A stretch of DNA of 64,000 bases. It comes from Afipia sp. OHSU_II-C1 (GTDB taxonomy: Bacteria; Pseudomonadota; Alphaproteobacteria; Rhizobiales; Xanthobacteraceae). The translations under genes were made by a program, and so were the position numbers. The stretch covers positions 310,001 through 374,000 of the forward strand of contig NZ_APJI01000016.1 in assembly GCF_000497575.1 (NCBI RefSeq), given 5' to 3'. Shown here in pieces: positions 56,073 through 61,825 of this stretch (the stretch's first letter is position 1; each line of letters opens with the position of its first letter). The notes below the pieces were generated by a model. The model was not told the DNA's origin, ran no database searches, and saw nothing but the letters and a program-made list of their open reading frames with translations.

Positions 56073-56561
56073 TTACGCTTCCTTGAAACCGTATTCTTGC
56101 TGGTTGCCGGTCGCGCCGTAATACTTGTACGGCAGGAATTTGCCCGACATGGTGATCTTGACGCGATCTCCCTTTGGATTGGCGAGGCGTTCCATGTCCA
56201 TGTCGAAATCGATTGCGGACATGATGCCGTCACCGAATTCTTCCTCGATGAGCGCTTTCCACGCCGGTCCGTTTACCATCACCAGTTCGTAAAGCCGGTA
56301 GATCAGCGGGTCGGTGGGCGGCATCTGGATTCCTTCGCCGCGCATCGGCACCTCATTGATCATCGCTTGTTCGACCTTGGAGAGGCCGAACAGTTTGGCG
56401 GCATTCTCGGCTTGCGGTTTTGTCAGTTTCATCTGGCCGAGGATGGCGCCAACCACCAGCACTTCGGAGTGGCCGCCGATCTGTTCGCAGATATGCTTCC
56501 AGCTCCAGCCGTTCTCGCGCTTGATGTCGAGCAGTTTCTCGGTGAGATCGGATCGCTTCAT
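56073..56561 (-). CDS. cynS: Cyanate hydratase (cyanase)
   Basis: This 162-residue decameric enzyme converts cyanate plus bicarbonate to ammonia and CO2. Active-site residues Arg89, Glu92 and Ser115 have the same spacing as Arg96, Glu99 and Ser122 of the E. coli enzyme. The N-terminal helix-turn-helix-like part (1-70) is normal. It is the last gene of the cyanate operon. Confidence 0.95.
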   Translation of the reverse strand: MKRSDLTEKLLDIKRENGWSWKHICEQIGGHSEVLVVGAILGQMKLTKPQAENAAKLFGLSKVEQAMINEVPMRGEGIQMPPTDPLIYRLYELVMVNGPAWKALIEEEFGDGIMSAIDFDMDMERLANPKGDRVKITMSGKFLPYKYYGATGNQQEYGFKEA

Positions 56562-56587: not shown

Positions 56588-57502
56588 TCAGGCGGCGCTG
56601 ATCTGGCCGGCCGCTGGCTTATCGGCAGATGCGTTGGTGGTGACGATTGCTGGCTCCGTGAATCCGGGGCGGACAACGGGCACGTTGCGCGGGTCGTGAT
56701 TCTTGTTGGTTTCCACAAACGTCTTGCTGCGTGTGACCAGGAAGTCGATGATGTGATTGCGCAATGCGTAATACTGCGGGTGCCGGTGGAGATCGATGCG
56801 GCCCCGATCCTTCGGCAGCGGATTTTCCAAGACCTCCGCGAGTACAGCGCCGGGGCCGTTGGTCATCAGGAAGATCTTGTCGGCGAGGTAGATCGCCTCA
56901 TCGACGTCGTGCGTGATCATGAAGGCGGTCTGGCCGGTCTCCAGGCAGATGCGGCGAACCTCGTCCTGCAACGTTCCGCGCGTCAGCGCGTCGAGTGCGG
57001 AGAAGGGCTCATCCATCAGCATGATTTTCGGCGTGATCGACAGCGCGCGCGCGATACCGACGCGCTGTTTCATGCCGCCGGACAACTCTGAGGGCCTTTT
57101 GTGCTCGGACCCGGTGAGACCGACAATGTCGATGAACTTCTGGGCATGGGCACGAACGCGCGCCTTGTCCCACTTGCGCCATTTGGATGAAACCGCGTAG
57201 GCGACGTTGCCCATCACCGTGCGCCACGGCAACAAAGCATGACTCTGGAAAATCACGGCTCGATCGAGGCTGGTGCCCTCGATAGCCTGACCGTCCACGA
57301 TCACGGTGCCTTCGGAGGGTTCGTCCAGCCCGGCAAGAATGTTAAGAACGGTGGTCTTGCCGCAGCCGGAATGGCCGATCACGCAACCGAACTCTCCGCG
57401 CGGCATCGACAGCCAGAGGTTCTCGAAGATGGTCGTCTTCCCGCCATCCGGTGCCGGATAGTGCTTGGCGATGCCTTCGATAGAGATAAATTTCTCGATC
57501 AT
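56588..57502 (-). CDS. Nitrate/cyanate-type ABC transporter ATPase
   Basis: This 304-residue ATPase has Walker A GHSGCGKTT, FQSHALLPWRTVMGNV, signature LSGGMKQRVGIARAL and Walker B IMLMDEPFSALDALTR, the pattern of NrtD/CynD/SsuB proteins. The start at 57502 has GGAG at the right distance and lies five bases after the permease stop. A C-terminal tail of about 40 residues beyond the ATPase core is of unknown use. Confidence 0.9.
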   Translation of the reverse strand: MIEKFISIEGIAKHYPAPDGGKTTIFENLWLSMPRGEFGCVIGHSGCGKTTVLNILAGLDEPSEGTVIVDGQAIEGTSLDRAVIFQSHALLPWRTVMGNVAYAVSSKWRKWDKARVRAHAQKFIDIVGLTGSEHKRPSELSGGMKQRVGIARALSITPKIMLMDEPFSALDALTRGTLQDEVRRICLETGQTAFMITHDVDEAIYLADKIFLMTNGPGAVLAEVLENPLPKDRGRIDLHRHPQYYALRNHIIDFLVTRSKTFVETNKNHDPRNVPVVRPGFTEPAIVTTNASADKPAAGQISAA

Positions 57503-57506
57503 TACA

Positions 57507-58346
57507 TCACTCCGGGAACGTGACCATGCGCGTGAACCGCGCAAGGATCTGGTCGAACATCATTCCGACCAGACCGATGACCAGAATGGCGATGATGACG
57601 TTGGTGATCGATAGGTTGTTCCACTCGTTCCAGACGAAGTAACCGATGCCTGTACCACCGACGAGCATTTCAGCCGCGACGATGACAAGCCAGGCAATGC
57701 CGATGGAGATGCGCATGCCGGTCAGGATGGTCGGCGCAGCGGCGGGAAGGATCACCGTGAAGGCGCGGCGCATCGATCCGACCTCGAGCGTTCGTGCAAC
57801 GTTGATCCATTCCTTGCGCACGGCGGAGACACCGAACGCCGTGTTGATCAGCATCGGCCAGATCGCGCAGATAAAGATCACGAAGATCGCGGAGGTGTTG
57901 GAATCCTTGATGGTGTAGAGCGCCAGCGGCATCCAGGCGAGGGGAGAGATAGGTTTCAGAACCTGAATGAAAGGATCGAGTGCCTTGCTGATCAGCGGCG
58001 ACATGCCGATCAGGAATCCGAGCGGGATCGCCACAATCACGGCGAGGAAGTAACCCAGCAACACGCGGGCAATCGAATAGCCGAGCTGGATACCAAGGCC
58101 CTTGTCATTCGGGCCGTTGTCGTAGAAGGGGCTCTTGATATGCTGCCAGAGCTTAGCGCCGACATCGAGCGGTCCCGGCATTGCCGATTTGCCCTGGGTC
58201 GCGGTCACACCCATCAGCTTTGCGTATTCCGGGCTCATGGTCGCGACCGACCCGCTGCCGCGCGTGGCAAGATGCCACGCGCCGATTAAGGCGAGGAAGA
58301 TCGCAATCGACAGCACGGCCGCGCGAAGTTTCAGCGACGAGGTCAT
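57507..58346 (-). CDS. Nitrate/cyanate-type ABC transporter permease
   Basis: This 279-residue permease has about six segments. Its BPD_transp_1 loop is preceded by WPMLINTAFGVSAVRKEWINVARTL and followed by GIAWLVIVAAEMLVGGTGIGYFVW, as in NrtB/CynB. The periplasmic loop after TM1 is longer than usual (about residues 30-85). It lies two bases after the binding protein gene. Confidence 0.92.
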   Translation of the reverse strand: MTSSLKLRAAVLSIAIFLALIGAWHLATRGSGSVATMSPEYAKLMGVTATQGKSAMPGPLDVGAKLWQHIKSPFYDNGPNDKGLGIQLGYSIARVLLGYFLAVIVAIPLGFLIGMSPLISKALDPFIQVLKPISPLAWMPLALYTIKDSNTSAIFVIFICAIWPMLINTAFGVSAVRKEWINVARTLEVGSMRRAFTVILPAAAPTILTGMRISIGIAWLVIVAAEMLVGGTGIGYFVWNEWNNLSITNVIIAILVIGLVGMMFDQILARFTRMVTFPE

Positions 58347-58348
58347 GC

Positions 58349-59731
58349 TTAGCTCGCCTTGCTGATCTTGAAGCTCTTGAGGTAATCCTCAGGCTTTGCC
58401 GGATCGAAAGGCTTACCCATCACGCTGAACGATTTCGTGATAGTTGTCGGGGGCGTCAGACCAACTTCCTTCATGAGTTTTGCCGTATCGGTGGCGAGGT
58501 AGACCTGGCTCGCGACACCGGCGTAGTCGACGTCACCCTTGATCTGTCCCCAACGCTTCATCTGGGTCATGATCCAGACTGCGAACGACTGCCAAGGGAA
58601 CGGATCGAAATCGACGCGGTTCGGCTGCGTCACGATGTTGCCGAGTCCATCGGCGAAGGTGCCGGTGAGAATCTGCTCGAGCACGATTGGCGGCTGGTTG
58701 AGATAATTCGCTGGCGAGATCGCCTCCGCGATCTGCTTGCGGTTCTCGGCCTTGTGGGCGAACGCCGTCGCATCGATGATCGATTTCAGCAGCGCGGCAT
58801 AGGTGTTCGGCATCGTGGTGACGAATTCCTTGGACGCCGCAAACGCGCAGCAAGGATGGCCCTCCCAGATATCCTTCGTCAGAATGTGGATGAAGCCGAC
58901 GCCATCATACACAGCACGCTGGTTCATCGGATCTGGACCGAGGAAGCCATCGATGTTGTCGGCGCGAAGATTGGCGACCATTTCCGGCGGCGGCACCGCG
59001 CGGATCTGAACGTCGGTATCGGGATCGATGCCGTGCTCCGCCAGGTAGTAGCGCAGCAGGTAGTTATGCATCGAGTAGTCGAAGGGCACTGCGAACTTGA
59101 AACCCTTCCAGCCCTTCGGGTTGCGCTTGTCCTTGTGCTTGATGGCGAGGGTGATGGCCTGACCGTTGATGTTTTCGACTGCGGGCATGGTATAGGGGAT
59201 CGGATTGGAGCCGGCGCCCATTGAGATGGCGATGGGCATAGGCGAGAGCATGTGCGCCGCGTCGTATTCCTTGTTGATGGTCTTGTCGCGGATGACAGCC
59301 CAGCCGGCAGTCTTGATCACTTCGACGTTGAGGCCTTGCTTTTCATAGAAGCCCATCGGTTTTGCCATGATGATCGGCGTGGCGCATGTGATCGGAATGA
59401 ATCCGACCTTGAGGTCCTTCTTTTCAAGCGGCGCGCCCTGCGCGAAAACCTCGGTGGCGGTCTTCAGGGGAAAAAACTGCGAGACAGCGGCGACGGCAGT
59501 CGCAGCGCCGACCGATTTCAGGAACGCGCGGCGTGCGACGTCTTGCGGAAACATCGCGCGCATGACGGCCGATGCGACGACGCCTTCATAGCGCTGCTCG
59601 TCGCCCAGTGAGGCAACGGTCTGGAGTTGGAGTGCTGCATCGTGCTCCGCGTCGTTCGCGTGCTGGCCGCAAGCGCAGCCGAAAGAGGAGAGGCGACGGT
59701 TTGGATCGAATGGATTGTCGAAGGTGGACAT
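58349..59731 (-). CDS. Nitrate/cyanate ABC transporter substrate-binding protein (NrtA/CmpA type), Tat-exported with long N-terminal extension
   Basis: This is a 460-residue protein. AGGAGG precedes the ATG at 59731. The first 66 residues contain FGCACGQHANDAEHD with Cys19, Cys21 and His24. Only then comes a twin-arginine signal RRAFLK (67-72) and a hydrophobic stretch. The NrtA-like domain has FIPITCATPIIMAKPMGFYE, AAHMLSPMPIAISMG and DNIDGFLGPDPMNQRAV. It begins the operon with the permease, ATPase and cynS, so cyanate is the likely ligand; nitrate or bicarbonate are alternatives. Confidence 0.9.
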   Translation of the reverse strand: MSTFDNPFDPNRRLSSFGCACGQHANDAEHDAALQLQTVASLGDEQRYEGVVASAVMRAMFPQDVARRAFLKSVGAATAVAAVSQFFPLKTATEVFAQGAPLEKKDLKVGFIPITCATPIIMAKPMGFYEKQGLNVEVIKTAGWAVIRDKTINKEYDAAHMLSPMPIAISMGAGSNPIPYTMPAVENINGQAITLAIKHKDKRNPKGWKGFKFAVPFDYSMHNYLLRYYLAEHGIDPDTDVQIRAVPPPEMVANLRADNIDGFLGPDPMNQRAVYDGVGFIHILTKDIWEGHPCCAFAASKEFVTTMPNTYAALLKSIIDATAFAHKAENRKQIAEAISPANYLNQPPIVLEQILTGTFADGLGNIVTQPNRVDFDPFPWQSFAVWIMTQMKRWGQIKGDVDYAGVASQVYLATDTAKLMKEVGLTPPTTITKSFSVMGKPFDPAKPEDYLKSFKISKAS

Positions 59732-59763
59732 GAAACCTCCTGCATGGCGTTTCAGTCCACTAC

Positions 59764-59778
59764 GCAAGCTGCGTGCCA
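59764..59778 (-). promoter_or_regulatory. Sigma-54 promoter of the cyanate operon
   Basis: On the minus strand the sequence reads TGGCAC-GCAGC-TTGC, an exact match to the -24/-12 consensus TGGCAC-N5-TTGC. It lies 33 bases upstream of the binding protein start, leaving a short leader with AGGAGG. A sigma-54 activator is encoded divergently. Confidence 0.85.
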
Positions 59779-59835
59779 TTCCCGTTTCGCGCGATTTATC
59801 AATAAGCCTACGCTGCAGCGGTAATATTGTCGGTT

Positions 59836-59847
59836 ACGAAATTTCGT
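59836..59847. promoter_or_regulatory. Palindrome, upstream activator site 1
   Basis: ACGAAATTTCGT is a perfect 12-base palindrome about 60 bases upstream of the -24 element. It shares the TACGA/TCGTA arms of the second palindrome. Confidence 0.6.
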
Positions 59848-59872
59848 GTTACATGATTATTCGTAGGTCAAT

Positions 59873-59886
59873 TACGATATTTCGTA
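59873..59886. promoter_or_regulatory. Palindrome, upstream activator site 2
   Basis: TACGATATTTCGTA has perfect TACGA/TCGTA arms. A further TTCGTA half lies at 59860. The site ends 10 bases before the activator's own start codon, so binding would also block its expression. Confidence 0.6.
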
Positions 59887-59896
59887 GTGAGGGTTT

Positions 59897-61825
59897 ATGG
59901 ACTTCTCCTTGTCCCCGATACCGGAGAGGGGCCCCGATCTGTGGGGCGCCGCGTTCGATTTTTCGGCCGAGCCGACGATGTTGCTGGATCCTCATGGCGA
60001 CCGCATCGTGGAGGCCAATCCCGCCGTATGCGCGTTGCTTGGATACGACCGTGCACTGCTCCGGCAGATGAAGATCAGCGCCTTGCATGCCGGTCAGGTG
60101 CCGGCGCTGATTGTGTTCACCCAGGCAGTGTTCGACAGGGGCTCATTCTGGACCACGTCGCTGACACCGCGTCATGCCGCGGGTAACAAGCTGCGGCTGG
60201 AATATACCGGGTCGCTCATCCCGCAGGAGGGCACGCCGCTAGTGCTGCTGGCGATGAGTGACCTCGAACAGCGTCGCCGGCGGTTTGTCGACGTTACGGC
60301 GGAGGATCACATGCGCGGCGGTATTGCTGCCTGGCAACGCGTGGAGCGTGTCTTCCGTGATATCGAGCGCGAGAACCAGTTGATCCTGCGCGCGGCGGGC
60401 GAGGGCATCTATGGGGTCAACGCCGAAGGCAAGACCACATTCGTCAATCCGGTCGCCGAGCGCATTCTCGGCTGGTCGGCGGAGGAGCTAGTCGGCACCA
60501 ATATTCACGCGACCGTGCATCATACACACCACGACGGCAGGCATTATCCGCACGAGGACTGTCCGATCTATGCCGCGTTCCGCGACGGCGCGGTACATCA
60601 GGTGGATGACGAGGTGTTCTGGCGCAAGGACGGCACGCCGGTCTGGGTCGAATACACGTCCACGCCGATCCGCGATCGCGGCGTGGTGGTTGGCGCGGTG
60701 ATTGTGTTCCGCGATGTCAGTCAGCGCCGCGAAGCTGATGAAAAGCTTCGCGCGGCGCTCGCCGAGGTTGACCAGCTGCGCGAGCGTCTTGAGCAGGAAA
60801 ACGCCTATTTGCAGGAAGAAATCCGCACCGAAACCAACCCGCGCGGCATCATCGGGCGTACCGCGGCAGTGCAGAAGACGCTGCGGCAGGTCAGCCTCGT
60901 TGCGCCGACTGACGCGACCGTAATGATCACCGGCGAATCCGGGACCGGCAAGGAACTGATCGCACGGGCTATCCACGAGGCGAGCCAGCGTAGCGACCGC
61001 CCGCTGATCCGGGTCAACTGTGCAGCCATTCCGCGCGAACTGTTCGAGAGTGAATTTTTTGGCCATGTCCGCGGCGCGTTCACCGGGGCGTTGCGCGATC
61101 GTGTCGGACGGTTTGAACTGGCCGACGGTGGGACGTTGTTTCTCGATGAAGTCGGTGAAATTCCGCTGGAGCTCCAAGGCAAGCTGCTGCGCGTGTTGCA
61201 GGAAGGGCATTTCGAGCGCGTTGGTGAGGAGCGGACACGCGCCGTCAATGTCCGCGTTATTGCGGCGACCAATCGCGAACTGAAGCAGGAAGTGAAGCAG
61301 GGGCGCTTTCGCGAGGATCTCTATTTCCGGCTCAACGTGTTTCCGGTTGAAACCGTGCCGCTGCGCGACCGTCGTGAGGACATCCCGTTACTCGCGCAGC
61401 ATTTCCTGAGCAGCGAGAGCAAATCGCTCAAATCCAACCTTCGATTATCGGAAGGCGATGTGCGTCGCCTGATGCAGTACGACTGGCCGGGCAACGTCCG
61501 CGAGTTACAGAATGTGATCGAACGCGCCGCCATTCTGGCCCAGAACGGCCGGCTGCGGATCGATCTGCCCATTCAGCAAACCGGAACCGAACTCCCCGTA
61601 GCGTCACGGCGTCCCAGGAATGGCGCGCCTCAAGTTATCATGACGGACGATGAGATGCGGGAGCACGAACGCAACAATATCCTGGCCGCGCTGAAGGCAT
61701 CCGGCGGCAAGGTTTTTGGCAAGGACGGCGCGGCGGAACTGCTTGCGATCAAGCCGACCACCTTGGCATCGCGCATCAAATCGCTCGGCATTTCGGCACG
61801 AAACCTCGATTCGCCAATGCGTTAG
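59897..61825 (+). CDS. Sigma-54-dependent activator with two PAS domains
   Basis: This 642-residue regulator has PAS domains at about 15-115 and 155-270. The second carries [18 protein letters not shown], a His/Cys-rich pattern seen in some PAS sensors. A coiled linker follows to about 310. The AAA+ domain has Walker A GESGTGKE (346-353), the sigma-54 contact GAFTGA (393-398) and Walker [11 protein letters not shown] Fis-type helix-turn-helix ends the protein (about 595-640). There is no receiver domain, so it is not a classical response regulator. It is divergent from the cyanate operon and likely activates it. Confidence 0.92.

Follow-up and report, generated by a model that had tools for sequence, protein, structure and literature searches.

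The 165-bp gap between cynA (minus strand, ATG at 59731) and cynF (plus strand, ATG at 59897) in the 64-kb window, by which we mean the whole stretch of DNA that was analysed, is very probably the enhancer-promoter of a CynF-type cyanate operon, in which three CynF dimers on an array of palindromes would reach the sigma-54 polymerase by a short, phase-constrained loop. In this reading, for which we infer binding, hexamer, signal, start site and autorepression, CynF dimers would bind three TTACGA-N4-TCGTAA-type palindromes whose centres lie 89.5, 106.5 and 127.5 bp upstream of the start, and the array would serve as a scaffold on which the three dimers form the active AAA+ hexamer upon a signal at the PAS region. 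The signal is presumably cyanate, by analogy with Pseudomonas strain CECT5344, and nitrogen status, acting through ammonium repression, may be a second input. The hexamer would contact the sigma-54 polymerase at TGGCACGCAGCTTGC over a DNA loop of about 60 bp, leading to an open complex and to transcription of cynABDS. The operon and the type of regulator are known; the three-site array and the ladder of array-promoter distances that we describe here are additions of the present analysis.

The cyn operon, CynF and the intergenic region

Four genes follow one another on the minus strand: cynA (58349..59731), encoding a substrate-binding protein with a Tat-type signal (Pfam NMT1_2, 286 bits), whose start codon was picked from AGGAGG and conservation; cynB (57507..58346), encoding an ABC permease (TIGR01183, 232.3 bits, cut-off 209.05); cynD (56588..57502, start codon provisional), encoding an ABC ATPase (ABC_tran; TIGR01184, 287.5 bits, just below the cut-off of 291.8); and cynS (56073..56561), encoding cyanase (TIGR00673, 142.3 bits, cut-off 113.3; Cyanate_lyase). 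The divergent sigma-54 activator gene adjoins cynA-cynB-cynD-cynS in that order, and the same order is found in relatives. Because cynB passes the cut-off of a model for nitrate transporters and the family models name the transporter after nitrate, the label "cyanate transporter" rests on linkage to cynS, which points to cyanate as the probable substrate. CynA also has a Cys-motif N-terminal extension ahead of its Tat-type RRxF signal, seen in the window, in L003, L054, L066 and L080 (loci carry L numbers here and below) and in others. By a strict pattern the motif takes the form CxCGxH in 44 of 68 loci and CxCxxC, mainly in gammaproteobacteria and Thalassospira, in 10 (both forms, 54/68), and a separate count of a strict C-x-C-G-..-H pattern gave 48/68, all of these being undercounts, since several of the other 14 loci carry the motif after DPF, not NPF. 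It looks like a metal site.

On the plus strand, cynF (59897..61825) encodes a 642-aa activator with a PAS-PAS-AAA+(sigma-54 interaction)-Fis HTH layout, whose closest relatives among the matches listed are Afipia CynF proteins at 93-95% identity. Its domains are two PAS stretches, a sigma-54 interaction domain (Pfam Sigma54_activat, 245.5 bits, cut-off 20.2), an AAA+ lid and a Fis-type HTH, and a Pfam domain search found neither a receiver nor a GAF domain. The translation contains the GAFTGA loop, of which G393, A394, T396, G397 and A398 are invariant in 40 sequences, and the genome (5.08 Mb in 42 contigs) has one rpoN gene (TIGR02395, 433.8 bits, cut-off 277.35). With its AAA+ sigma-54 interaction domain carrying GAFTGA, its HTH and RpoN in the genome, CynF has the features of a bacterial enhancer-binding protein. 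An AlphaFold2 model built with 40 relatives (mean pLDDT 78, pTM 0.41) has a pair of PAS-like regions with helices connecting them, the AAA+ domain and the HTH; a structure search aligned activators mostly over AAA+ and returned nothing on the sensor. Within PAS2 (60506-60562, residues 204-222) lies a conserved H-x3-H-H-x3-DG-x2-YP-x3-CPIY stretch, in which H204, H208 and C222 are invariant in 40 sequences and which may bind a ligand or a metal. The idea that the cyanate sensor is a heme- or metal-binding PAS was considered and set aside, the evidence for it being a weak similarity to DosP.

The first-pass annotation had described the divergent gene as a PAS-AAA+-Fis activator, in agreement with these domains, and had placed an exact TGGCAC-N5-TTGC 33 bases before the transporter gene on the minus strand. 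This sigma-54 -24/-12 promoter element of cynABDS is indeed present, as TGGCACGCAGCTTGC (59764..59778, minus strand, 0 mismatches), 33 bases ahead of cynA, with the -12 C at 59764 and a predicted +1 at 59752. It is the sole exact match to the sigma-54 pattern in the 64-kb window, where 8 matches with at most one mismatch were found against 5.4 expected. Genome-wide, however, the exact element has 11 matches and a backwards control pattern also has 11, so that the string is no better than chance and was rejected as stand-alone evidence; its value at 59778-59764 is its place, orientation and conservation. From the predicted +1, the cynA leader would be 21 bases long, with AGGAGG at 59741-59736. 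A consensus scan for a sigma-70 promoter of cynF gave no hit.

Upstream of the sigma-54 element are three candidate CynF sites, none with an assigned strand: the promoter-proximal site 1 (TACGAAATTTCGTG, 59835..59848, one mismatch, centre -89.5), the middle site 2 (CATGATTATTCGTA, 59852..59865, degenerate with two mismatches, centre -106.5) and the distal site 3 (TACGATATTTCGTA, 59873..59886, no mismatch, centre -127.5). Sites 1 and 3 are the two TACGA/TCGTA palindromes that had been placed about 90 and 130 bases upstream of the expected start; both are real, but the count of activator sites is three, the degenerate palindrome between them having been overlooked. Among the matches listed, TACGATATTTCGTA is the only exact palindrome match in the genome, and the two ACGA-N4-TCGT cores of the 64-kb window both lie inside the 165-bp gap (1.4 expected per 64 kb). 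Site 2 scores 13.6 bits with the motif model, compared to 23.6 and 24.2 bits for the other two sites; in Afipia loci L001-L003 the same position has 0-1 mismatch, and the core of site 2 is intact in the same-genus genomes G585 and G623. Site 3 ends 10 bp ahead of the cynF start codon, so that CynF bound there may also repress its own gene. A lone palindrome elsewhere, TACGAAATATCGTG (C5:191859; L114), overlaps a reading-frame end and was taken for chance.

Conservation of the array beside CynF

Recurrence of the palindromes before orthologous loci had been put forward as a check on the first-pass annotation, and when this comparison was run, the sigma-54 element and the palindromes were found again at the same place, giving strong comparative support to its reading of a sigma-54 promoter served by an enhancer-binding protein. 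In the nearest-relative set, the best 80 CynF loci of a longer list, cynA is divergent in 67, cynS takes its place in 8, and neither is nearby in 5 (L028, at a contig edge, L065, L071, L072 and L076). CynF faces cynS alone in L036, L040, L043-L045, L053 and L078. In the five Methylobacterium/Methylorubrum loci among them, the leader from the predicted start to cynS is 131-155 nt long; most Bradyrhizobium relatives have a cynA leader of about 21-24 nt. In some gammaproteobacteria, an FNT (formate/nitrite-transporter) gene and cynS stand opposite the CynF relative in place of cynABD, in the order FNT-cynS in L109 and L110 and cynS-FNT in L112 and L113. The FNT gene is above the Pfam cut-off for L109, L112 and L113 and under the NCBIfam fnt cut-off, and from its place beside cynS the encoded protein is a candidate cyanate channel.

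The spacing of the sites is nearly constant. In 94 non-duplicate arrays, fitted with spacings restricted to 20-23 bp (sites 3-2) and 17-18 bp (sites 2-1), the centres of sites 3 and 2 are 21, 22 or 23 bp apart in 53, 29 and 12 arrays, and those of sites 2 and 1 are 17 or 18 bp apart in 86 and 8. A wider first fit (18-26 and 13-21 bp) gave the same spacings except at L055, L065 and L069, and at L026, L030 and L035, where the stretch was too short. Left out of the 94 were L028 (contig edge), the duplicates L090, L092 and L097, and L069 and L106, for which an array was not obtained. Below the array, the best sigma-54 element has 0, 1, 2 or 4 mismatches in 34, 50, 9 and 1 of the 94 loci, that is, 0-2 mismatches in 93/94; the element with four mismatches, at L065, was judged spurious. 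L065 (5880-5934, Pseudomonas gingeri) is a NitA-like gene with no adjoining cyn genes and with a pair of palindromes separated by about 41 bp, and the search upstream of it gave no good sigma-54 element; it was counted in the 94 (distance 84.5) and excluded from the tree and 107-array ladder analyses described below. L055 has no good site 1, and the weak arrays that were kept are L102 (score 16.5), L055 (18.5), L067 (24.7) and L061 (29.3).

Loci drawn from a broader sample gave the same picture. CynF was present at E<=1e-150 in 20 of 398 evenly drawn Pseudomonadota genomes, the source genome included; three of the 19 others duplicated earlier loci, leaving 16 to be tested with the model fixed beforehand. 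Fourteen of these had array scores of 37-69, while L102 scored 16.5 and L106, a short match, -0.1. The maximum among 193 control stretches, a random 15% of the tiled stretches from the first loci taken on one strand, was 5.2.

Linkage to CynF was examined in 119 genomes of the family. A strict 17/21 array (at most 3 mismatches) occurs in 27 of them and CynF in 39, and in 27/27 genomes the strict array adjoins CynF, which in one is cut by a contig end; the backwards array pattern was found in none of the 119. The 13 CynF genomes lacking a strict array all have cyn genes and a sigma-54 element with 0 or 1 mismatch, and seven of them fit three sites at 17/22, including L119 and L121 with a weak middle site. 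Fourteen loci beyond the strict pattern were picked in this way, 13 as pattern misses and one for its missing CynF. L115-L118, which come from one genus and encode a short CynF, carry two sites at a spacing of 17 bp; three sites fit in L119-L121, also with a short CynF; L123 has two good sites and L122 weak ones. The short CynF proteins of L115-L118 and L119-L121 have open frames of 502-528 aa that match from residue 144-159 and lack the first PAS domain, which makes L115-L121 a natural test of the role of PAS1. The 80-nearest, 398-genome and 119-family sets overlap in species or genus and are therefore not fully independent. A class-wide search for a zero-mismatch array found 0 in 190 genomes, the source genome included, which says little given so strict a pattern and so diverse a sample.

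Relation to known sigma-54 activators

The cyanate system closest in layout is cynFABDS of Pseudomonas pseudoalcaligenes (oleovorans) CECT5344. According to the accessible part of its description, a divergent Fis-family sigma-54-dependent regulator and a putative sigma-54 promoter before cynA are present, a CynF mutant has no cyanase activity, and the system is cyanate-induced and ammonium-repressed (PMC6627978). The window and CECT5344 thus have in common, as far as that text goes, the divergent sigma-54-dependent Fis-family regulator, the cynABDS order and the sigma-54 promoter before cynA, whereas activator sites are not mentioned in the portion examined (PMC6627978). The activator of the window is an orthologue of this CynF. 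Because control by CynF is already published there, the proposal of the first-pass annotation that the window represents a different control mode for a cyanate operon is not supported. The accessible part of a 2025 comparative study likewise lists cyanate lyase as one of the functions linked to sigma-54, with enrichment in alpha- and gammaproteobacteria (PMC12316311). In the Pseudomonas loci L066 and L068, whose CynF is 60% and 58% identical to that of the window, the array is centred at -89.5, -106.5 and -129.5 and is accompanied by a weaker TGGTAC-N5-CTGC element. Among the papers listed by a literature search with few subscription papers in its coverage, none was found to report CynF/NitA sites or the ladder, and within the same coverage a text search for four palindrome strings found no paper containing them.

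In architecture, CynF resembles NorR, for which three enhancer sites are described, in the part of the source seen, as a necessary scaffold for a higher-order oligomer (PMC2941729). By sequence inspection, GTCA-type inverted repeats occur three times in the E. coli norR-norVW region, near -87, -111 and -132, so that both systems combine a divergent activator with three sites ahead of a sigma-54 promoter, and their layouts agree in the number, position and extent of the sites. They differ in that NorR, from the portions of the sources seen, has a GAF domain (PMC2941729), a GT-N7-AC site (PMC4987338) and spacings of 24 and 21, whereas the corresponding features of CynF are PAS domains, a palindrome of the TACGA type and spacings of 17-18 and 21-23. 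CynF was not assigned to NorR itself (374.4 bits against a cut-off of 476, with the match confined to residues 285-632, and PAS in place of GAF), nor to NifA (375.4 bits, cut-off 528.85) or FhlA (357.9 bits, cut-off 830), and the CynF HTH gave no match to NorR. The HTH of E. coli FhlA, on the other hand, is 53% identical to that of CynF over 38 aa, and the FhlA site given in the part of the source seen, CATTTCGTACGAAATG (PMC4987338), has an ACGAAAT half in common with the CynF site, with its TTTCGT-ACGAAA order the reverse of the CynF ACGAAA-TTTCGT. The E. coli hycA-hypA gap contains no match to the CynF motif (the highest score being 0.7 bits), so the likeness to FhlA is confined to the half-site. 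From the NorR-like layout together with the FhlA-like HTH and half-site, we propose three-dimer assembly and short-loop contact for CynF.

The same palindromes also occur beside NitA, described in the accessible text on nit1C nitrilase clusters as a Fis-family sigma-54 regulator (PMC11049912). NitA-type proteins of L071, L072, L076 and L098 are 55-56% identical to CynF, and the HTH of L072 is 74% identical over 42 aa. Their targets differ, being the MSMEG_0572, nitrilase, radical SAM and GNAT genes of nit1C clusters in L072 and L098, where the nit1C families were confirmed for four proteins and one protein, respectively; L071 and L076 were grouped with NitA by the tree and the sigma-54/array layout, not by their neighbours. 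The NitA arrays lie farther from the sigma-54 element, at -123.5 or -132.5 to -133.5, with spacings of 22-23 and 18.

Array-promoter distances and alternative explanations

While the internal spacing is nearly fixed, the distance between array and promoter varies in steps. This distance was taken from the centre of site 1 to the predicted +1, with the promoter set to the best sigma-54-like element lying no more than 160 bp from the array, for 107 arrays that include 14 extra loci (L115-L128, the weak L122 among them). With +1 sites predicted throughout, the distances form a ladder: 67.5 bp (1 array), 78.5 (1), 88.5-93.5 (61), 100.5-104.5 (33), 109.5-115.5 (6), 122.5-123.5 (2) and 132.5-133.5 (3). 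The off-rung loci are L119 and L121, which are related and both at 109.5. Grouped into 73 spacer clusters, the 107 arrays have a best period of 11.1 bp (R 0.77), reached in 0 of 20,000 smoothed nulls at each of four bandwidths, and the best-fitting ladder has a step of 10.8 bp, from which the rms deviation is 1.25 bp. At 75% spacer identity (61 clusters), R is 0.76 (0/20,000 nulls); at 60%, the clustering joins nearly everything, leaving just 5 clusters, and significance is lost (1822 and 2252 of 20,000 nulls). Parsimony on a tree of 93 CynF proteins gives 34 changes of distance, comprising 23 of 1-3 bp, nine of 9-13 bp, one of 21 bp and one of 24 bp, and none of 4-8 or 14-20 bp; the 24-bp change is that of L055, whose incomplete array (distance 67.5) was kept in the analysis. 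With a loop this short, contact would depend on which side of the helix the array presents to the polymerase, in line with distances that have changed mostly by 1-3 bp or by about whole turns. On balance, we favour the view that the enhancer of CynF and NitA is a rigid unit for three dimers, with spacings almost constant at 17-18 and 21-23 bp, and that evolution has shifted it relative to its promoter, between about -68 and -133, by essentially nothing but whole helical turns.

An 11-bp ladder could also arise from shared ancestry and a few events, instead of from selection on helical phase. The loci are indeed related, the tree holds only 11 large changes, one of which (L055) stems from an incomplete array, and significance is lost with clustering at 60% identity. 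Nevertheless, the large changes fall on separate branches, the distances span 67.5-133.5 bp without a single change of 4-8 or 14-20 bp, and the 73 spacer clusters were matched by none of the nulls, so that ancestry as the whole explanation appears rather improbable to us.

The site count and the identity of the bound protein can be questioned as well. It is conceivable, though unlikely, that only sites 1 and 3 matter, two dimers being sufficient and the rest of the hexamer coming from solution, with the middle palindrome a relic: site 2 is poor in the window and also weak at L119 and L121, and L115-L118 are relatives with two sites only. Yet these two-site relatives keep the 17-bp pair, which is the spacing of sites 1 and 2 and not of sites 1 and 3, and site 2 is well kept in Afipia L001-L003 and exceeds 10 bits at most loci in the first fit. 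Palindromes centred on N4 are common for other regulator families, and the array could in principle bind a different protein, for example a CRP/FNR-type or nitrogen regulator, with CynF acting elsewhere. That the strict array occurs only beside CynF in the 119 family genomes, that it recurs beside NitA, with its quite different targets and closely similar HTH, and that the CynF HTH and half-site resemble those of FhlA render this highly improbable. We therefore retain CynF as the protein that would bind all three sites.

With a CynF/NitA motif defined and the internal spacing of the three-site enhancer almost constant, site mutation, footprinting and target prediction become easy. Hexamer placement over short loops is usually tested with engineered spacers; the 11-bp ladder offers an evolutionary handle on how enhancer-binding hexamers are placed relative to the sigma-54 polymerase when the loop is short. 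If the whole-turn reading of the ladder is true, the internal geometry of the enhancer would be held far tighter than its distance from the promoter, and these loci would record, in natural sequences, the phase constraint on looping by a single activator family that is common to the cyanate and nitrile/cyanide pathways.
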